Shown here piece after piece: positions 11,101-63,000 of a stretch of 64,000 nucleotides of DNA. A program made the position numbers and the translations under genes. The notes beneath the pieces are model-generated. The model was not told where the DNA came from. It saw nothing but the letters and a program-made list of their open reading frames with translations, and did no database searches. Within the stretch, counting starts at the first letter, position 1, and each line of letters starts with the position of its first letter. The stretch comes from Norana najaformis (taxonomy: Eukaryota > Annelida > Clitellata > Crassiclitellata > Hormogastridae), in contig OZ029927.1 of assembly GCA_964023275.1 (NCBI GenBank), forward strand, positions 11,203,726 through 11,267,725, read 5' to 3'.

Positions 11101-14100
11101 ATTGGCCACCCTTGGATCTGTCCTTGTTAACATTGGTGCTACATAATTAGGTCTATTCATCTCATTAGTCATGTCTAGTCTGTTCTAGACAATTTCCCTA
11201 TGCATATATAATGTATCTATAATATATAACATAACAATATAGTATATGATACATAATATATATAATGCCAATAATATTAATATTTTGTATTATATAAATC
11301 TTTAGTTTTCGTGATTCTCATTTGCAGATGTGCCAAATTCCAACGGTTTCGTAGAAGATAAGACGTTTCATTCAAACAACATCTTACATCAACTCTTAGC
11401 AGAAAGTGGACGTCAAAAGGCACGAAACTCCGAAGAGACGACCCTTACTTCCGGTTCTGAGAGAGAACCACGTTCGATGGAAAGTAAACATCACCTGCAC
11501 CATTCCAAAGTCACAGATACGGAAGCTCCTTTGCCTCCCAGTGTTCCACCACCGTCCGACTTCGATTCACACTCAACCGTGTCGACTGGGGGAATCGACT
11601 CCGAAAGCTGTTATTCGTTCTCGACTGCCGTCCAGTCAACCGTGACGGTCTCGGGAGGCAGCGCGGTGCCAGGCAAGTGGCCACGCTTGACGGAAGACGC
11701 GCAGAGGGAGCACGAAGAAGAAACGCTGCGTGGTTCTGCTGCGGAAGATGAAACGCAAGATGAAGGTTCGTTGAAGGAAAGATGTGCCGTCGTAAGTGAT
11801 GCGGGTCTGGATCTTGGCAAGCCTTTGATACTGTTGCCTGGTGTCAAGGAAACCCAGGATTCGTCGCGAAAACTCGCTTCTTTCGAAGCATCACAGAACG
11901 GCACCGACAGACGGATTTCTTTGACCAAGAAAAATGGTGGTGAGGAGGAGAAGAAGAAGGAGGAGGAGGAGGAAGCGGAACGAATGGTCTTTGAGATCGC
12001 CAAGGGATCTGTAGGAGTGGGATTCAGCATCGAAGGAGGAAAAGGATCGCTTTCGGGGGACCGACCTATTGCCGTCAAAAGGGTTTTTAAAGGTAGGTCT
12101 GCGTTCACGCGAATCACGGGTATAATTAGACTTATATGCCATTGCAGCGTCGCCATATAAGACTACGCGGTGTCTGTCGATGCTCGTTTCCAAGCGACGG
12201 TCGCCATTCGGGTCTTTCTGAGAGTCAACAGGTCGCTTAAGGTGGATATGGAAGCTGGAAATTGTATTGTTGGATCTGGATATGGGCAAGAATGGGCCTA
12301 ATAACATCAGGCATTCCTTCTTTGAAGCAATGCCGGACAGCATGAACCAGATACTAATGTGCTGCCTAAAATAACAGAAAATGGCGCTTCTAAGGGATTG
12401 GAAGAGGCGCTATTGTAATGTTCTGTTACAGTTACAACTACAGTTACAATTACAGTTACAATTACAGTTGTGGCCGATGACCAGATTGTGTGGCTGTTTA
12501 AAGCAGCAAGACAAAAGTTTCAATTAATTTCAGATCATTTATTTAGCGCCTTCTCGAGATATTTACACAGGGGCGCTTGATATTTGGTATAAGGTTTCTC
12601 TACTACCAGATACAAGTCTGCTTATAATGCGCAATTGCAGTCGAGTAGTCTGTGTAGACAATGTCTATGTGTACAATTCTGGTCGTTTTCTTGCCTGTTG
12701 TTGCAAGATATTAGGCCTACTGTAAAAAGTGTATGTGTGTGAAGGGCTGACGAGGATTATGTAGAACGACATCTAGTGGAGTCAGTGAGTGTGACTGAAT
12801 GATCAGCATTGGAATTAATGGTACGCGAGAGGTGCGTGACAGGAATGCAATCTGTGTTGAATCCAGATTTCTCCTCGAACCTTGGACTGCAGTGGTCTCG
12901 TGACCATTCGATGTGTTTGAATTAATGGCACTTGCAGTAACGCTCGCCTATTAACCATTCTTCCCCAGTAAGTAAACCATATTACAAGAGAGGAGGACTT
13001 CAGTGCAACCCAGCGAAATAAAAGTTCCGATTATAAGCGTTTAAGATCGAATAGTCTATACTATGATAGAATGGACGACTAAGGCCGATAAGCAGGGCCG
13101 ACTTATCCATTAGGCACAGTAGGCACTGTGCCTAGGGCCTACGAACTTTACAGGGGCCTACAAAATTCAAAAACGAGCTATTGAAAAAAATTAATTTATT
13201 GATTGACCCGAAAATAGAAGAAGGAAATACAAATTTAATAACCTTAAAGTTTGTACTGAAACGTTTTAAGTTAAGCTGTACTACATTATGTTAACTTTGC
13301 GGCTCTTTGCATTAGCAAAATCACATATAATGCCCTCAAATGCCATTTCCCGCATTAAGTCGTTTTCAGTGTGTTTAGCTCTAAAGCAGAGTTGGCAGTT
13401 GGGGCTTACGAAAGCGAGAGTGCCTAGGGCCTACGACGACCTTAAAACGGCCCTGCCGATAAGGACAGGCAAGTGATAGGAACGAGTGATAGGAACTCGG
13501 GAAATGCATCCCATTGAGGTACAACATAAATGGACAACTTTCCCTTCCGCTAAAAATAGGCGATGCGCTGGTCCTGTGTCCAGGACCTTGGAGTTCATCC
13601 ACTGCTGGTTCACAAGCTACTGAGTAGGAAGTGAGCGCCTCCACTACGTCGAATCACTGGACGAAGAACGTTTTCATCATTCCAGACAAAGTAGCCTCAT
13701 TTAAATTACATAAAGATGCTCTGTGGACGAGGGCTGCTTGAGGAAATGTAAATGTACACGTTTTTCTATAGCGGTTGTATGACCTTGACCCTGCTCACTT
13801 TTCAATAAATTATTCTTTTGGGATCCTTCACAACCGCTGTCCGTTTGAATGGACACATTCCATTTAAGGTCCCCCTGTTCGGACCGTGCTACCCCAAATT
13901 TTAAATCTTTTAAATCAGCCTCGACCTGGACGTGAACCGGCATCCTCACGCTCAGAGGCGCCTTGACGTACGCATTAACGGATGTAGCTAACGAGGCCAG
14001 TTAGAGTAGTAGTTCCTCAGTTTAACGACAGCTTATGGCATCAAAGGCCGTTGCCGTCGCCCTCCTCCTTTATCCAGGCTTGGGACTGGCACTACCCCCA

Positions 14101-14400: not shown

Positions 14401-19444
<5,044 letters not shown>

Positions 19445-24470: not shown

Positions 24471-24822
24471 CGGTAAATAATAAAATAAATGCAGCACCCT
24501 GATTATTCACTTTAATAAAAAATTTGTTTTGATATCTGTTAGTCGAATAAAAAATTATAATCCAGGCTTAGGACCAGATTATATCGTCGACTACGTCAAA
24601 AGACTAAAAGACAACAGCATTTACGTCAGAGACACAGGGTAACCTATCACCTAATCTGTCCTCAGCCATTTATTTTTTACTGAGCAGATTTGAGCTGATT
24701 TTGTTTACTGCAACTAGTTACATTATACGTAGTGTGCTGTTGTTGCATTTGCAGTAAGATGTGAATTTTTGCTTGTATCGTTTGATTGCAGTTAATTTCT
24801 CGTAGTTAACGACCGTTCAGCA

Positions 24823-25269
24823 ATGGAGAACTTATACGATATCCTTGGAGTGTTGCCATCATCAACATACAAAGAAATCAAGCAGGCTTTTCAAAAGATG
24901 GCACTACGTTACCACCCTGACAAATGCCAAGCCTTGACTAGAAATCTTCCAGACGTTACCAGTAACTGTGAACCTGTACTACCAAACGTTGCCAGGTTTC
25001 ACAGTATTTCAAAAGCTTGGAAGGTCCTTGGTGATTCAGATTTACGATCGGCATATGATGCTGCCTGGCAGCAGAGATGTCTTGCACAGGAGTGGCCAAT
25101 TCAAGACATAGTTGCCCTAGAAGAATTTGACCTGACCGATGATGCCGTTTACAGTTACCCGTGTCGCTGTGGTAGCGGCTACAACCTCAGTCAACAAGAC
25201 GTTCTGTTCAAAGTTGACTTGGTCTGCTGTCCTTCTTGCTCTCTCTGCATTCAAATCGAATACGACTGA
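24823..25269 (+). CDS. DNAJC24: DPH4 / DNAJC24 J-domain co-chaperone for diphthamide synthesis (148 aa, intronless)
   Basis: The N-terminal J domain (residues 1-~85) has YDILGVLPSSTYKEIKQAFQ and the invariant HPD in LRYHPDKC. The C-terminal DPH-type (CSL) zinc finger has PCRCGSGYNLS and, about 25 residues later, CCPSCSLCI, giving the CxC...CxxC metal ligands. The length equals that of human DNAJC24 (149). In the known pathway, DPH4 helps the Dph1-Dph2 radical enzyme and electron donor DPH3 make diphthamide on translation factor eEF2, in the cytosol. All key residues are intact and the frame is complete, so despite lacking introns it reads as functional and not as a processed pseudogene. It is convergent with the HSD3B-like gene, with about 0.9 kb between. 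Confidence 0.92.
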   Translation: MENLYDILGVLPSSTYKEIKQAFQKMALRYHPDKCQALTRNLPDVTSNCEPVLPNVARFHSISKAWKVLGDSDLRSAYDAAWQQRCLAQEWPIQDIVALEEFDLTDDAVYSYPCRCGSGYNLSQQDVLFKVDLVCCPSCSLCIQIEYD

Positions 25270-26160: not shown

Positions 26161-29100
26161 CTACAGACGGGTGTCTTTGTAGAACGTAAGCGACCTCTGA
26201 AGGCTGTCAGTATAGCTGTACTTCGGCTTGTATCGCAGCTTTTTTTCGGCAAGCACACGTTTGAAACAAGTAGACTGATTTGTATAGAGAATTGTTGATG
26301 GTGAATGGGACATGTTGATTTCACAGATCTGCCGCAAAAGCCACAGCACCCACATCAGCAGGCAGTACATTCCATATACCAGTAGAAATGGCAGTCGGAA
26401 AGATGACAGACGAAAGCCACGGACCTGCAGAAATGGTTCCATGGAGTCAAAGACATTTCTGACGGGACTGTCATCGTTGACAAAGTACGCTCGTCCACCG
26501 ACTGAAGGATTGGACTGTAGTGCTTTCATGGCGCAGACTTCAGCCCAGGCCGCGTTGCCAACATAAGAACTCTGGAACAAAGCTTGGCCAGAACCAACTC
26601 GGTAAAGGGTCCCGTTATGAGCCTGAGCTTGACGAAGCATTAAAGTAACAAAGTATGGGTCACCCTCTCCATACATGACAGTAGGTCGTAAGACAAGAGT
26701 GCGAAGAATGTGGCCATTTCCTGAAAGAAATAAAGCAGATCTAAGTACTCTTTTAAATTCGTTGAATGTTATTTAAGCCATTAATAAATCTTAATTAATA
26801 AATCAGAGTAAATAAAATTACCAAATCTGAGCAATTAATAAAGTCAGAAGACCTCCTCTTAGATCCTTGAATGCACATTAGCAAACTGCTGGTCAGTTAA
26901 AATTATCTAATCACACATTAGCTGTGTACCCCTATCGACTGTTGTCCCAACTGTGGATGAACGATGCGAAATACAAACATGACAACTGTTCAACATTGGT
27001 TTTGTTTGCTTATGTGGCATAAAAAAACTGAAGGTCGATTTCATGATTCATATTCGAATTTCATATGCACTGGTAAAACCATATAGCCAACCTTTGATGA
27101 TTTTCATATTAGAACTGGGCAGTGAATAGAGCTAAGCTAACCAGCTTTCTTAGTTTCTTGTGTAAAAGTTTAAACTGACCCTTGGCTAATGGTCGACCAT
27201 TGGCAGCAAGAACAGCTTCTTCGGCTTGTTGTTTTGTTGTTCCATACCCTTTAAACAAGAGCTGCTCTGGATATGGAAGACATTCATCACCATTAATTAT
27301 ATCACCACGACCAACAGCTACGTCTACGGTGCTTGTAAAGATCAGATGAGGAACGCTGGCAGCTATGCATGCTTCGATGACGTTCTTTGTACCTTGAAAC
27401 AGATGAAATCATTCCATAAATTTTGCAATGTCATTTGCTTAGTGTAAAGTGGCAGCTTAAGAGCAAGTGAAATCATGTTAAACTGTATGTATATCAGTGG
27501 GTGGATAAAGATTCAACAATTGCCGCAGATGGGTTATTTTACTTATTTAACTTACTTAGTTTACTTAATTTACTTAGTTTATGTGTAGACCCCAACTACA
27601 CATACAACTAATAGATATAAGATTAAATAAACCTGCACACTCAGTTTGATTTTAAATGGAGTGCATGGAAACATTCCCAGTACTCTGAGGTTGTTTATCC
27701 ACAAGCATATCACAGCCAATTTGTACATTTACATGCTACAAGCTTCAAAATTACTATGTGCACTTTAATATTGTAATCGTAATCCCGAGATTTCTACAGC
27801 GCCCAACGAAAGCCACATCATGGGGACCAGTTTATACACAGGCGCTCAGACATTGTGCATACCCGAATTTGTCAAAAGGATAAAACAACTGAATAAAAAA
27901 TTAAGTAGGTGATTACAGCAAGTTAGCAGTGCTGTCACGGCACTGGGTCTGCGGAATCCATAAAACAGTAAGTTTCTCACTGACTGCCATTCACTAGCAT
28001 GCTGAAATATAAAAAACAGAGCTAAGCAGAGTGCTCTTTGGGGTTGGTAGCAGTTTGCAGAATGGTTAGCAGTTGGTATAATGCCTATAGATAGGAGAAA
28101 AATGTACAAGGGAAATATATCTTCAACGAGAGATACTGTAGTCTGAACCAGTGGGCAGAAGTTACCTCTTTCCCCTCCCTACAAACTGAACCATTGAGTT
28201 AAAAATTTTGGTTCTTTTTTACTTTTGATTTAATTAAGAAACTCGGCTGCACTGCCTACTGACCTTTCACGTTGACGTCTTGCAGCGTCTTCATGTCTGG
28301 AAACATTCGGAAGTCAACGGCCCCAGCGGCATGGAATACACAGTTCACTCCGACCATGGCATCTTGCAGGTCTTGCATCATTCGAATATCCCCAGTGTAG
28401 CTTTTCACGAGACACTTTGCTTTGTAATCTGCTTAAATAGAACGAAGAATTAATAGTTTAATTTCTCTTTAAGCGTAACAATATCTTAAAAAACTGCACT
28501 GGGAATTTTATTGAATCTATTTTCTTTACCGTGTTGATTACATAAGTGGGACATATCAGTGGTAATGTTAGTTTTTTAAGCTTATGGAAGTTTATCATTT
28601 TTGAGCTGTGATTATTTTACCAGTGGTACTAATACTTATGTAAACGTGGCTCACAATCAGACATCTTGCATTGACCATTTCAGCATAGCTTAGTGGAAGA
28701 AGTAAATGTGACTGAAGGCATTTTCAATCACAGTGTCCATAAACCATGAAGCCTCAGCTTGAGATCATTTTTAAATAGAAGTGGTAGGATGACTAACCTG
28801 AAAAAGTCCACAGCAGTATTATCTACGATGGGATATGGCCAATTTGGCAGGATATTATGGGGTATCTGATGATGTGATTGGCTTTGTGGGGTCATCCAGA
28901 GTTGATAGATGACACCATGTTTAGAGTTCCAGGACCGTGTGGAACTAAGGATCAGGAACAATGGTAAAACCTGTCAACGGTGGTTGAAACTGCCAAGATC
29001 TGATTCTTGTCATTGTAGGGTCAGAGTGACCATGTCCATATCTAGCTAACGAAACAATCCTGACTTAAACTTGTTAATAGGACTAGGCAAATTTAATGCT

Positions 29101-47453: not shown

Positions 47454-50400
47454 ATGTCAGCCTCTCAGTCTTATACGATTAATGGAGTGAAGGTCATCTT
47501 CCCGTGTAAGGCCTATCCTTCGCAACTGTCGATGATGGACAAGGTAACTTGTGTGTAACACTTTTGTTAGGTCTGTTCTCAGTGATCTAATGTGATAACT
47601 TTATTGCTACCTGTGGCATGACTTTAACTTCCAAAATGTAACTAAAAATTATTGTTGCTTTCTAAGTCTGTCTGCTGAGAATGAATTTTTTCTACATGTA
47701 TACCAATGCTTGAATCATGCACTTAATGCTGACTTTTTTGAGTATTCTAGTGATTAGCATGATGGACTGTCAACCCACAGGTTGATGGTTCATATTCCTG
47801 GCAGGACAGATATTCCAAGATTTCTGTCCACTAGCACCCTGTCACATGCTCAGATATAAGTGAGTACACTTACCATATACTGTCAGTGGGAAGCTCATAC
47901 AGCATGGAAGAAGACTGGCCACCCTTCCACATCTGCCATAGCTAAGGAAATGAAGTCGCTACTATTTCCTACCCTCGCTCTTGGGATTAGCTTAAGAAGC
48001 TGCTCTTCTTCATTCTGACACTTTGCCACGTGACTAGTCACAGATTTTATTCGAATAAAGTGTGAACTTCGGATTTCTTGGTCAATGTGGAAAGTGATAG
48101 TGGCCATTCTCACATACACAATTTAAAATATTCTGTACTTTAGGAAGTTTTTGTAAACTTAGAATTAGAGTTAGAGTTGAATTATACTGTGGTGCATTAC
48201 TTATTGTTAGAATTAGAGTTAGTGTTGAATTATGCTGTGGTGCATTACTTATTGTTAGAATTAGAGTTAGAGTTGAATTATGCTGTGGTGCATTACTTAT
48301 TGTTAGAATTAGAGTTAGAGTTGAATTATGCTGTGGTGCATTACTTATTGTTAGAATTAGAGTTAGAGTTGAATTATGCTGTGGTGCATTACTTATTGTT
48401 AGAATTAGAGTTAGAGTTGAATTATGCTGTGGTGCATTACTTATTGTTAGAACTAGAGTTAGAGTTGAATTATGCTGTGGTGCATTACTTATTGTAACTG
48501 ATGTGAAGATGTTCCATTTCATTCATAACTGATTGATGGGAAAATTGGTTTTAGATTATAAAAGGGATTGATCGACAACAAAACTGTTTGCTTGAAAGTC
48601 CGACGGGGAGTGGCAAGAGCCTTGCCCTGCTCTGCTCGGCTCTGGCATGGCAGGCAGCAGAACGTGGTAAGAATGTCGTTCAAGGACTGACAAAATTGCC
48701 AGTCTTCATTTAGAAGAAAATTGCCTTTGATACCAATGTAGGATGACATTAACATCAGTTTGGCTAGCGAATTCTCTTCATTAGGTAGAGAGTGCCTTTG
48801 ATTGGTTTCTCTTTAAGTGATGCTAGATAAGTGTCCAAGTACAATTACAAGTTGATCTAACATTAATAAAATTACTTGCTTTATTGAACTGTTAACGGAA
48901 GTTCTCAGAGGTACATGGTTGAATAACTAAATCTTTTATCTGAATTGTAAAATCCACAACAACCATTAAAGATCTGGATAATTCGTTAAGTGTTGCATCA
49001 GTCAACAGCAAACACCATTTTATGGAAGGACTGCAGGACTTGAAGCTCTGGCACATTGCAGCAAATGATAATTTCTTTTTAGTTAAAAATTGGCTGTGAT
49101 CAATGCAGGTCAGCAGCAGCCTTCCACATTTATGTTGTGACCTCTGTGATTTCTTCTTCAGTGTAAACTAAGTACACGGTTACTTATTTGTAACTGATTT
49201 GGTAAGAAGATGTGTTATGTAAACATCAATGGCCATAGCAGCCGTAAGGCATTGTTAAAATTCTGTCAGCTGTTGTAGTTGTTTGAGCAAATTCTGTTGT
49301 TTCATTTGAATCTTCGACCTCTAAACTGCCAATTTAAATTATAAGCCAAAGAGAAATGTTTCTTCTTTCTGTCATCATTGACGTGCTTTCATTTAGAGAA
49401 GATTCGTCAGGAAGAAATCAAGCAGACTGACTGTGCTTGCTGCTGCCAGTGTCACAAGGCAACAGACTTGGGTGCTGTATTTCCTTCAGCTGATGTGACT
49501 GTTAGTTCTGCCAATCAGCAGCAACAGCAGCTGGGTACCGCAGCTAATCTTGATTCCTCGCACTGCACTTCTAATCTGGATCAAGAGAAATGCGAAGTGA
49601 TAAGTAGGTTGATGTCTTTTGTTGGAGAGAAATTTACTATTATGTAAGTTGCAAATGTAAACTGGTACAAAATAACTTTACAGCCACATCTAGAATCTTT
49701 GCAGTGACAAATATGCCTTTTTATTTGTTAGTACTGTACTGATTGTTTAGTGTCTTTCGAGTATTAAGGATCTTGAACAATAACCTTTGTCAGTAAATGT
49801 TCCTGAGAAAGTCTTTGGTTTATTTTAGCAATTAATGAAAATGATTCAGAAAGTGATGAAGATTTTCAGTCGAGCAAAAAGAAGCTCCGTACCAGCAGAA
49901 AACAGGTTAAAATAAAAGTTTGGTCCAAAGTTCCCTTGTAAGTTTTAATATTTCTGCATCTGTGTTGCCATATTTCAAACTTAAATATCCAGATTGTAAC
50001 CTGTAACAGAACAGATCTAATTTGGGTTAAAATAGTTTAATTAAGTAGAACCTCAGCTGTTAACATAATTGCATAGACTTGTAATAATAATAAGACAATT
50101 TATATAGCCTTTAGCACAGCTGAGCCCGGAAGAGGGCGCTGTTTATGAGTACTTCTAAAGTTTTGTATAGTTAGTCGTTGACTGCGGACATGTAGGCATG
50201 CATTTGCTTTCAAAGAGACCTTGATATCAAAAATTTATGTAGGCCTGCTTCAAGAGACATACTACGCTAGCATAAACAATGTTAGCTGCTGTTAAGAACA
50301 GAAAGTTGATCGGTTAGCAAGCAGAGTGCAGATAACAAGAAGAGTCAAATGTGGCAGGATCCTGCATGCACATAGAGCCCAAACAATGGATTCCCATCAA

Positions 50401-57092: not shown

Positions 57093-60000
57093 TGTATATA
57101 GTTGCAAAATATCTTTAAAGACATGTATACGTTTATATATATGTATCAAGACTGTTAATGTGTATCAAAAATGAATCTCACTCATGGTCCACGAACTTTG
57201 GTTTATCAGTACTTTATTATTTTGCTGCATAATGTAATTTTGTGCCATTTGTTGTCTTATGACGACGCAGCACTGGTAATACATTCCTTTTGAGAGGATC
57301 AGGACTAAAGGTGTAAAATAAGTAAGTAAATAAGTAAGTAATGCATTTGTTAGTGCACCATTTTGTCGGCTGAGTGAGGAATCGTAGGCTTGGACAAACA
57401 AATAATTAAATACATAACAAATGAATCTTTAGTTGCAATAGATCTTTCTTATGTTTCACTTTAGATAGTTTCTGTTACAAATGTAATTTTCCAGGCATTT
57501 ACGGATATGAGTGATAAAGTTCGCTGTGTTATTCTGACAAGCGGAACGCTCTCTCCGATGACCTCATTCCAGTCAGAACTCGGGGTTGTTTTTCCAATAC
57601 AGTTGGAGGCCAATCATGTTATTGGAAATTCACAGGTTCGTAACAACATCTGACATTCTCTGAATATCACGTGTGTTCAAGAATTTATTCCTTCTGTTAG
57701 TTGATAGATTATGACACAGAATTAATTACTGATGTCTGTTATTGCTTTGTTCAACATTTTATTGCATTCTAACTATCGAAGTAGTAATCATGTATTGCCA
57801 GTAGTCATCTGATGCATAATTACTGAGTTAATTGGGTACACATTTTTCTTAGACACAGGACAGGAGAGTGGGTGGTCAGTCTTCTCCCGTGCTGCCTGAT
57901 CTTCCCACTGATAGTGTACAGTCAGTGTACTCATTTTATAACTCATTTTATAGCTATGTTTGCTATGTTTACCTGGGAATTAAATAGTTAAGTGGCTTCA
58001 CATTTAGTGATGCATGGCTCTAAAGATGGCCAGTGTTTTTGTGGCTCAGCATATAACTAATGCAGCATAAGTCATGGTTACTTATTGTCTGTTAGAATAT
58101 ATTTATGCATTTGGGAGTATAGTCTAGATTTGCGTATGCTGGATCACATACTTTGACCTTGTTCTTAATCAGGTGTGGATTGCCAGCGTTTCTCGGGGTC
58201 CATCTAACCAGTCGCTTTTGGGCAGCTTCCAGAATGCCGAAACACTTGGCTATCAGGACGAAATTGGAGAGATTGTTCTCAGGATTTGCCAGGTATGAAT
58301 TTTCCATTTCTATTTCAATCGATTATTCATCAATTTTTATTGTATTTAAAACATAATATTAATTGGAAAGTTGTATTGCACTTCTTCAAGAGAAATTCCT
58401 CTTAGGGGCTTCCAGCCTAAAAACACAAAATCGTGATCAAACGAGAATCCAGTGCGGTTGCATCACTGTGATTGCATGACTTGTCTAACATCACCAGTTT
58501 TGTTTTCAACTTTGTAACGCAGCTCTTACTCTTCTAATTCTGGAATAATATGCCAAGTAACCTAACAAGCCATCTCTTACTTTCATTCTGTTGGTGATTG
58601 AAAGCTCTTTGTTGATTGGTATGTTTGTGTCAGTTTGTCATGATGCTAGAGATATTAGTGATGTAGAAGTTTAGAATGCGATACAGGCCTGTGTTTGTGT
58701 TTTAGACAGTGCCATATGGGGTCTTGTGTTTCCTGCCGTCCTACAAATCGATGGAGAAATTGATGAACAGATGGAAGGTAACTAGTCTCTCAATGTATGA
58801 GTTGTTGATTTGACAGTTTACATATTAGTCGTTCACCAAATTAGCGAACTAGTTGAGATTCTGCATTACTTGCAGCGCTTTTGAGAGGTACAGCAGAGGC
58901 TCTTAATAACAGACTTCATTATAACATAAGTTTTGATAAAAAGATGGTCAGGGACTTGGATCCCAAAATTGATTTCCCTGTAGAAGCTGAACTCGTTATA
59001 ACAATGATCTCATTATGAGGCAGATTTTGATATCACTTCCAAAGTGATATAACGAATTTCTGTTGTACTTAAAGAGCGCTGTATTAATTGTATTGAAACA
59101 TATATACTTGCATACAATTTCCTTCTTTTAATAATTAAAAGGAAGATGTTGTGAGCCTCCCCTGCCTTTAATCATTCCATCTTAAAACCATTGGGTGTTT
59201 TGAAGAGAGGAGTTCACTAGAGCATGTCTAGTTACACATGTGGCGTTACAGTACATGGTGCCTCAAAGATGTTCACCTGTCATTTAATCAACTTGTCATG
59301 TCATGTCGTGTAATTGGCATGTCATTTAATTAACTTGTCATGTCATGTCGAGTAATTGGCATGTCATTTAATTAACTTGTCATGTCGTGTAATTGGCATG
59401 TAATTTAATTAACAGTTTCGGCCAGTTTGTCAGCCGATCAGCCAGCCATAAGTTATAGCTCTGATTCAAGTTTGACTTCTGGCACTTTAATCCCATGTTG
59501 TTGGTATTATTATGATGATGATTGTAAAGCCAATTTCAGCCATTTATTAAAACAGGAATGCGATAGGCTTCTAACAATTATTGGCAGATATTTTGCAGTG
59601 CTTTTCAGAGGTACCTGAAAGATGCTATATTAAGTGACACATGCTAAAATACATTATCGAGCCACTTGGGAGGGATTCTTACAGGATTTATTCTGAAAGA
59701 GTATTAGGTTGCCTGCAAGTCAGCCCAGTATGCTAAGACTATGTGACATTATTACCAGTACTTCAGCTTATTCTGTCCATTTGTTAACGCTCAAACACCT
59801 ATTAGTACCGTCTTGCTTTTGTTTTCTGACCATTGTGACCGATCCACCAGTGATTCCTCTCTCAGCCGATGGGCATATGGCATGTTAACAAATGTATTAC
59901 TTACTCACTTATAGGAAACTGGTACTATGGCAAGAATGTCGGAGTCCAAAACCATTTTGCGGGAACCTCGAGCCTCGGACAAAGAGAGTTTTGATGACAT

Positions 60001-63000
60001 CCTCAAAGAATTCTACGAAGCAATCAGAAATGGCCATATGGGAGGTTGTATGACATTGTGTAATTATGAGTACCGTTATGAAAAATATACTTGCTTAGTC
60101 CTTCCTGTGCCGATCTGCACATCAGGCAATGCAGCTTCTCCATTCATCTCTGTTGGCTGCCAGTCTTCCTGCCTCATCCCATGACATCTCCAAACAACCA
60201 AGGCCATATGGGAGGTTGTATGACATTGTGTAATTATGAGTACTGTTATGAAAAATATACTTGCTTAGTCCTTCCTGTGCCAATCTGCACATCAGGCAAT
60301 GCAGCTTCTCCATTCATCTCTGTTGACTGCCAGTCTTCCTGCCTCATCCCATGACATCTCCAAACAACCAAGGCCATATGGGAGGTTGTATGACATTGTG
60401 TAATTATGAGTACTGTTATGAAAAAATATACTTGCTTAGTCCTTCCTGTGCCAATCTGCACATCAGGCAATGCAGCTTCTCCATTCATCTCTGTTGACTG
60501 CCAGTCTTCCTGCGTCATCCCATGACATCTCCAAACAACCAAGGTCATCTCTGATGGTCTCTGGCCAGTTCTTCCCTTGGTCTTCCCTTCCTCCATTCCC
60601 CTTCAGAATCGTAATTATGAATACTGTTATGAAAAGTGGAATTGTGGAAATTTTTGTGATGCATAATTGCAGTGTGTTAAATGTACGTTTGTGCTGTGAT
60701 CTGATCAGTTATCTGTGTATTGCCGCTTTATATATGAGTCCTTGTGGATTAGTTGGTGCATATTTGTATGCTGTTGTATTCTTAAGGTGAAGCTGATCAG
60801 GGCACTGATGGAGCACTACTTTTTGCTGTCTGTCGTGGAAAAGTGAGTGAAGGACTGGATTTTGCAGACAACAATGCCAGAGCTGTTATAACCGTAAGTT
60901 GTCTGTAGGCTGTATATAAGGCATAAATTAGTCTTTCATTTCATCACACTTGCTCGTACAAATGATAGATCACACACTGCACTCTCTTGAGTGGTCTTAC
61001 TTACTACATTCATCATATTGCCAACTTTGAATTGGCTTATTTATGTTATAGCCATTTTTGAATTGGCTTATTTATCTTATTGTCACGTTTAAATTGCCTT
61101 ATTCGTCTTATTGCCATTTTTGGCTTATTTATCTTATTGCCATGTTTGAATTGGCTTATTTATCTTATTGCCATGTTTGAATTGGCTTATTTATCTTATT
61201 GCCATTTTTAAATTGGCTTATTTATCTTATTGCCACATTTAAATTGCCTTATTCATCTTATTGCCACATTTAAATTGGCTTATTTATCTTATTGCCATTT
61301 TTAAATTGGCTTATTCATCTTATTGCCATGCTTTAAATGACATTTGATCTTGTTACCCTGATTAGTCACCTGGGTTTTCACTGCAACGGAGGCCATTATG
61401 TGTAGAGCTGTTATTGTTTGACTTGTAGATTGGAATTCCTTATCCTAATATTAAAGATACACAGGTACGTTAGCGATGACAAAGACGTTGTGTGGTGGTA
61501 GTGATGATTGTGCTGAAATGGCATTTATGGTGATGATGACGAAAAATTTTGATAACTGCAATGTTGGCTTTGAAGCTGACAGCTGTGAGAATGACTATTT
61601 CATTGATTCTGATGATTGTTGCGCTGATGGTTTTTCGTCTCTGATGGTCTCTGGCCAGCAAAACAGACTGTTGGTCTCAGATGAGGCATCTGTTTTTTCT
61701 TAGAACTAGTGGTGGAACTGGTAGTTAGAAGTGCACTGGACTAAACTTTATAATACAGTAAATCCTTAATATTGTGGAAGAGTTTAACTCTGTTTTGCTA
61801 AACTGACGATAGTTTCGCTCTGTATTACTAAATCTGAGATTGTTTGACCTGTTATAACTTAAATGATACTTTCTAGATCTTGTTCTAAATCCCCTGTGAA
61901 GTTGGCACTGATAAGTGAAGGATTGTGGCGATAGATTAATGTTGTTAAGATTTGATCGGTTGATCTTTTCCTTCTATAGGTTTTACAGAAGAAGAAATAC
62001 AACGATGGAAAGAGTCACACAAAGGGTCTTTTGTGTGGAGCCGAGTGGTACGAGATCCAGGCTTACCGGGCGTTAAACCAGGCTTTGGGAAGGTGCATTA
62101 GACACAGGTCAGTAAGTGGCCTGCGATTGGCTCACAAATAACATTGTCTCAGTCTTTCATTTCTGTGTGAGGGTACGCATACAAGTGGGCACAAGAATTT
62201 GACGTGTTTGTTTGCAAACGTTTAACTTGTTAGGGAAGGTTTTTGAATTGCTCTTCTGTAATATGGTAAAATTGTGCTTAAACTCTCTGACCCACTTTCT
62301 CTGAGGAACTGTTCATTATAGAGGCATGTGATACGTGTGGCATTATTTACAGTACTTTATTCAGTTGTGCTTACACTTTTTGGAAGTATTTTGCTCTGTG
62401 TTGATTTTTGCTGTTGAAAAGAAAATATGAAATCTTTGTTACTATATTGTTCATGATGATATGAAGTAACTGTCATTACCCTCTCATGATCTCTGTCACT
62501 GTGACCATGTGTGTGATGTACCATAGTCAGAAGGTACCCCTCCCATCTGCTGTGGGGGTCTGTTTGGTCTATTCATGGCCATCTGTTCATGATGAGTCAA
62601 TAATTGAAAAATTGTGGGTTCATGTCTGCTGTGTATGCTTCTTGCAATAACCTTGGGCAAGTTGTTTGGCCGCTTGTGCCTCTGCCACCAGATAGTGGAA
62701 TTTGGTGCTGGCATAAGATGGGAAATAAACTGCAAATCCTGAGATGCACTGGCGTCATGACGAGGACCTTGGGTTTCATAGGCTGTCGACTCAAAGGCTG
62801 AAGAGCAGGAATTAGCACCTCCCCTACATTCCACTAGGGATATGAGTGCTTCACTTTACATCCTCTGTGATATCTTGCATCACTGTATTTTGTGAAATGG
62901 AAACAACACATTGTGATCTTGATGAATAGAATTTTAACTTTTATCTGTTTTTTTCAGACGTGACTGGGGTGCCTTGATTCTTATTGATGAACGATTTGGT

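Follow-up and report, generated by a model that had tools for sequence, protein, structure and literature searches.

The stretch of Norana najaformis DNA analysed here (64,000 nucleotides; hereafter, the window) carries exons of a BRIP1 (FANCJ) gene on its plus strand, and the end of one of these exons is repeated, together with part of what we take to be a LINE, in a tandem array that runs into the following intron. The exon in question belongs to the helicase core and lies at 59915-60044 (plus strand, 130 bases, ending ...IRNGHMG in phase 1); it was identified through a phmmer match to human FANCJ (9ej9), and the acceptor in front of it, CTTATAG|GAAACT, scores above 98.0% of the AGs in the window. 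The next BRIP1 exon, at 60787-60893 on the same strand, begins GT GAA GCT behind the acceptor TTCTTAAG|GTGAAG. The first-pass annotation gave 60786 as the position of the acceptor; this is the last base of the intron, with the exon starting at 60787. The introns before and after the 130-base exon measure 1137 and 742 bases, respectively.

Human FANCJ (BRIP1) is the best solved relative of the 79 residues encoded by these two exons (5.9e-16), in which a Helicase_C_2 domain is found. When 12 exon pieces were joined into 417 residues and compared with PDB chains, the match to FANCJ reached 3.9e-144, as against 1.2e-36 for CHL1 and a weaker match for XPD, which bears out the BRIP1 identity first assigned from the letters of the DNA. 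This alignment covers FANCJ residues 349-486 and 598-886, and within the 598-886 stretch, the loop at the array intron is the sole place with extra residues relative to the human protein. Searches of the organism's own genome (608 Mb in 17 contigs, with the window on contig 15) returned only two matches to the 79-residue query, both of which are the array-flanking exons themselves. Given the FANCJ match of the joined exons and these lone matches, the BRIP1 exons found are apparently intact and single-copy. A pseudogene reading was discounted, as 12 exon pieces match FANCJ and no second copy of the array-flanking exons was found in the genome.

Tandem Repeats Finder reports the array at 60032-60548, with a period of 170, 3.0 copies and 98% matches. 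All three units read on the plus strand: unit 1 spans 60032-60201 (170 bp), unit 2 spans 60202-60371 (170 bp) and unit 3 spans 60372-60542 (171 bp). Each starts with ggccatatg and finishes with caaccaa inside the LINE, and contains the last 13 coding bases of the BRIP1/FANCJ exon together with its splice donor, the flank of 25 bp and antisense LINE sequence of 113 bp. Coding sequence (atcagaaat) precedes unit 1 alone, units 2 and 3 are preceded by caaccaa, and beyond unit 3 the similarity to the LINE extends to 60610. In all three respects (the number and size of the units, their left-hand neighbours and the continuation of the LINE past the last of them), the locus is as it had first been described. 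Between units 1 and 2 there are 3 differences in 170 sites; one substitution and an inserted A separate unit 3 from unit 2, and four substitutions and an inserted A separate it from unit 1. The units thus vary at five positions, namely 43, 81, 125, 142 and the site near 49 where unit 3 has its extra A. All three are letter-identical over positions 1-42, where the end of the exon and the donor region lie, although with no more than five variable positions this identity is not significant by itself.

The LINE piece occupies 60430-60610 on the minus strand, opposite in orientation to BRIP1; as far as 60542 it belongs to unit 3, and the rest is an unduplicated remainder. Matches in the same genome mark it as an antisense, 5′-truncated tail. 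Forty of 1037 candidate matches were scored, one of them being the window itself, and the ends of the other 39 all fall within 60595-60618. Base-by-base comparison of 27 of those 39 copies with the unit-3 version gave a mean identity of 0.899. In 23 of the 27, the edge of the similarity lies at precisely 60610, and in the remaining four it lies at 60595, 60606, 60608 and 60616. Most of the seven related copies that we label L002-L008 visibly continue beyond the equivalent of 60610. On the minus strand of related copies, an open frame ends in this region (in L008 and, with small changes, in L006); its end is presumably akin to that of non-LTR reverse transcriptase proteins, and the LINE assignment is based on this likeness. 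Three ORF pieces of the related copies had no Pfam match, with the reverse transcriptase core falling outside the stretches examined, and the one of the three that was searched in the PDB had no match there either. At the 3′ tail, copies such as L008, L013 and L014 show TTACTTACTTAG on the plus strand, and the array locus has just ATACTTGCTTAG.

Directly behind the LINE edge, at 60611-60635, lies a 25-bp sequence that also occurs on its other side. This right copy matches the left copy at 60060-60084 (both on the plus strand) at 23 of 25 positions, and matches the repetitions of the left copy in unit 2 (at 60230) and unit 3 (at 60400) at 24 of 25 positions each. As a control, we looked across the window for pairs of 25-mers that lie 150-699 bp apart and agree at 23 positions or more; apart from this locus, all such pairs fell in 300-bp bins that contain microsatellites or tandem arrays. 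Since the LINE ends at 60610 and the direct repeat starts at 60611, the interpretation of the repeat as a retrotransposon target-site duplication, which had been proposed at the outset, is well supported by the sequence.

The continuation of the LINE past unit 3 implies that the element was present before the duplication. The boundaries, and with them the 27 LINE copies, support the order of events proposed in the first-pass annotation, in which a LINE inserted near the donor with a target-site duplication and a tandem duplication followed. The same copies give a direction to three of the four substitutions that separate the units. At unit position 81, G is found in 19 of the 27 copies, A in six and T in two, and it is likely that the G of unit 1 is ancestral and the A of units 2 and 3 derived. 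At position 125, where all 27 copies have A, the G of unit 1 is derived by this comparison, and so, by the same comparison, is the G of unit 3 at position 142, where 25 of the 27 have C. At position 43, the C of unit 1 is probably new, as the right target-site copy has T. A sister relationship between units 2 and 3 has thin support from one shared derived base, at a site that is variable in the LINE; gene conversion could possibly yield the same pattern. With regard to relative age, 15 of the 181 sites of the unit-3 LINE piece depart from the per-site majority of the copies (one of them privately in unit 3), compared with three substitutions in 170 sites between units 1 and 2 and four, plus the inserted A, between units 1 and 3, which suggests that the duplication is several-fold younger than the insertion, an estimate qualified by small numbers and subfamily differences.

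The proposal that the duplication was mediated by the microhomology ggYcatMt fared less well. GGCCAT and GGTCAT differ at the third base, and the junction reads GGCCAT, so that the exact microhomology is GG only, with a chance probability of about 0.17 when two breakpoints are drawn at random from the locus. The longer match is imperfect, with 6 of 8 bases, and although its probability is about 0.003, it was chosen post hoc.

The acceptor of the exon at 60787 calls for a donor in phase 1, and three GTs of unit 1 are in that phase, at 60045 (GAG|GTTGTA), 60048 (GTT|GTATGA) and 60060 (TGT|GTAATT); a fourth, at 60075, has a far lower matrix score. The donor and acceptor matrices that we used are simple human frequency tables, applied here to another animal, and by these tables the GT at 60045 scores -4.34, above no more than 58.6% of the window's 3786 GTs, with 60048 and 60060 above 75.3% and 67.5%, respectively, and four neighbouring BRIP1 donors above 95.0-99.9%. 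Pairing with the 5′ end of U1 gives a different order, with -6.8 for 60045 (stronger than 96.0% of GTs), -5.2 for 60048 and -1.9 for 60060. Because it has the best U1 pairing of the in-phase GTs, we regard GAG|GTTGTA at 60045-60046 (plus strand), with copies at 60215 and 60385, as the likeliest true donor, in line with the first-pass annotation, even if it is unusually weak by the matrix. The GT at 60060 was rejected, as its pairing is poor (-1.9 vs. -6.8) and its use would add five residues to a loop that is already longer than in the human protein. A minor-class (U12) intron was likewise discounted, as no good donor for it was seen by eye, and inspection by eye showed no convincing GC donor near the exon end.

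When the donors of unit 1 are not used, the reading frame runs into a TGA at 60182-60184 (plus strand), 89 codons from the first base of the exon. Every donor of units 2 and 3 that was tried (60215, 60385, 60218, 60230 and 60400) leads to this codon after 89 codons, with LINE sequence in the mRNA, as had been predicted for donors 2 and 3 with a stop at about 60182, and translation of the splice products accordingly keeps the frame with donor 1 and loses it with donors 2 and 3. The corresponding introns would be 742, 572 and 402 bases long. The related claim that three equivalent 5′ splice sites compete holds in that the donor regions are identical, but each unit has three candidate GTs rather than one and the donor that was named is weak by the matrix.

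The behaviour of identical donors has been studied in minigenes, in which the upstream donor was used exclusively when two identical strong donors were placed between flanking introns of 365 bases (PMC9225289). When both donors are weakened to GAG/guguca, smaller constructs keep the upstream preference, and larger exons are preferentially skipped (PMC9225289). In view of this upstream preference and of the long introns that flank the exon here, donor 1 should still be dominant, and skipping of the 130-base exon would be a possible side product. The two situations are alike in having identical donors after one exon and long introns on both sides, and also in that the GAG/guguca of the minigenes (PMC9225289) is weak and far from the consensus, as is GAG|GTTGTA. 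They differ in that the donors described there (PMC9225289) are two and designed, whereas those found here are a natural triplet.

A further splice signal, which the first-pass annotation does not mention, may have arrived with the LINE. In antisense, the element carried in a pyrimidine-rich tract and a CAG at 60604-60606, which together form an acceptor-like site on the plus strand, CCCCTTCAG|AATC, with 60607 as the first base after it. By the crude matrix, its score of 8.92 ranks second among the 4056 plus-strand AGs of the window, behind 9.11 at 14078, and the true acceptor at 60787, 180 bases downstream, scores 0.90 and ranks 299th. If splicing is disturbed in this species, suspicion should fall on 60607 no less than on the extra donors. 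The units themselves could also supply short exons. In each extra unit, the 12 bases GCCATATGGGAG (residues GHMG) lie between the CCAAG junction and the donor and form a candidate micro-exon, and adding one or both of them preserves the frame (GHMGGHMG...). As acceptors, however, the AG at 60203 falls at the 50th percentile of AGs, and those at 60215 and 60385 fall at the 28.6th.

We consider it fairly probable that a LINE insertion with target-site duplication was followed, later, by two rounds of duplication, and that donor 1 is still the one mainly used. According to this proposal, the tail of a LINE would have inserted in antisense into a BRIP1 intron, leaving a 25-bp target-site duplication that starts 15 bp past the probable donor; tandem duplication of a segment that begins with the last 13 bases of the exon and ends within the LINE would have followed much later, and one copy would then have been duplicated again to give three units. 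Splicing would presumably proceed mainly from the first donor, the extra copies would leave as intron, and the array would be nearly neutral or mildly harmful baggage. The low matrix score of the donor and the skipping of larger minigene exons with weak donors (PMC9225289) weigh against this reading. It is unlikely, by contrast, that the identical donors compete in earnest, with use of donor 2 or 3 bringing LINE sequence and the TGA into the transcript and making part of the BRIP1 mRNA non-productive. The letter identity of the three donor regions, the greater closeness of donors 2 and 3 to the acceptor and the TGA reached from every one of their GTs that was tried would all fit such competition, but the exon-definition context predicts the upstream donor (PMC9225289), and no decay is visible in the BRIP1 exons found. 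Moreover, since only 13 bases of the exon were copied, exonic enhancers situated farther upstream would remain with unit 1. An assembly artefact, with one or two units in the true locus, seems very improbable to us: repeats of this size can be mis-assembled, but the units can be told apart by bases of their own (two in unit 1 that are likely private; in unit 3, a substitution and the inserted A), and the array has sharp junctions.

The remaining alternatives concern the acceptor and the micro-exons. The acceptor at 60607 might outweigh the extra donors in its effects by rivalling the weaker true acceptor, yielding a pseudoexon or a faulty splice. Its high rank speaks for this, as does a donor-like GTACGT at 60683, at the 95th percentile by the matrix, that would close a pseudoexon of 76 bases and introduce a stop; nevertheless, U1 pairing at 60683 is poor, surpassing that of just 20.7% of GTs, the matrix is crude and gives its top rank to an AG, at 14078, without a known role, and the BRIP1 exons found appear functional, so that we regard this outcome as distinctly unlikely. 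Far less plausible still is the inclusion of the in-frame GHMG micro-exon from each extra unit, or a dual-specific or recursive role of AG|GT in splicing. The frame would be kept with one or both micro-exons, and tandem repeats such as that of UBC do use dual-specific AGGT sites (PMC10809524), but the acceptor scores are poor (50th percentile at 60203, 29th at 60215) and an exon of 12 bases is hard to define. It would likewise be extremely surprising if the triplication acted as a splice-signal ladder, in which AG|GT sites and micro-exons allowed stepwise removal of the intron or the addition of GHMG repeats to the helicase-core loop that already has extra residues relative to the human protein.

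The reading that we prefer, with insertion, later duplication and continued use of donor 1, brings together processes that have been described elsewhere. Tandem duplication over an exon-intron boundary is a known route to new introns (PMC4974935), and another starts from exonic sequence that holds a proto-splice site and is duplicated in tandem (PMC2891723). The Rogers model resembles the present case in that a tandem duplication spans an exon-intron boundary and copies splice signals, but there, the copied segment was the 3′ side of an intron together with the beginning of the following exon, and the outcome was a new intron. AGGT sites within tandem repeats can be dual-specific (PMC10809524), and the arrays of this type in UBC and VCX3A share with this one an AG|GT in every unit. 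In contrast to those arrays (PMC10809524), the units here are nearly all intron, two of them are 170 bases long, which is not a multiple of 3, and the acceptor context is poor. Dual specificity is not indicated by our acceptor scores, which put the unit AGs at the 28.6th percentile of the window AGs, nor do units of 170, 170 and 171 bases, mostly intron, form the multiples of 3 within coding sequence that would be expected of such an array. Finally, LINEs are depleted near exons, within 50 bp in human and 100 bp in mouse (PMC3088655). The fragment described here lies inside that zone, but it is a very short fragment in another genome and was later copied in part together with an exon end.

The locus therefore joins known ingredients and is a new example rather than a new kind. 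We did not find a report of it in the literature searched, and we do not claim that it is absent from print. Its value lies in being a clean natural case of a conserved DNA-repair gene with tandem copies of one and the same 5′ splice site, in which the order of insertion and duplication is readable. It also bears on the cross-exon proximity rule derived from minigenes, which might hold for weak donors duplicated in nature or might give way to skipping of the exon. Apart from this splice-site interest, the locus is ordinary structural variation.

Several other features of the BRIP1 introns deserve mention. The intron directly after the exon at 60787-60893 contains a 31-bp minisatellite of 10.8 copies (61008-61338). 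In the intron after the exon at 61429, a sliver of 22-24 bases (61635-61658) is 96-100% identical to an inner part of the LINE and has a match in each of the seven copies L002-L008 except L004. As this sliver is not the 3′ end of the LINE and no flanking repeat is obvious by eye, it may be a templated patch left by repair. Farther downstream, the BRIP1 exon that ends ...TSG has an apparent GC donor, CAG|GCAAGT, with 63026 as the first base of the intron. Elsewhere in the window, there is an uninterrupted (TA) run at 16436-16638, with 101.5 copies and 100% matches, and an array of seven copies of a 48-bp unit, 98% alike, at 48159-48495, through which more than one frame stays open, 48 being divisible by 3. 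An ORF at 24796-25269 encodes DnaJ and CSL zinc finger domains, and we take it to be DPH4-like from the order of these domains, while another, at 26161-26772 on the minus strand, encodes a 3Beta_HSD domain.
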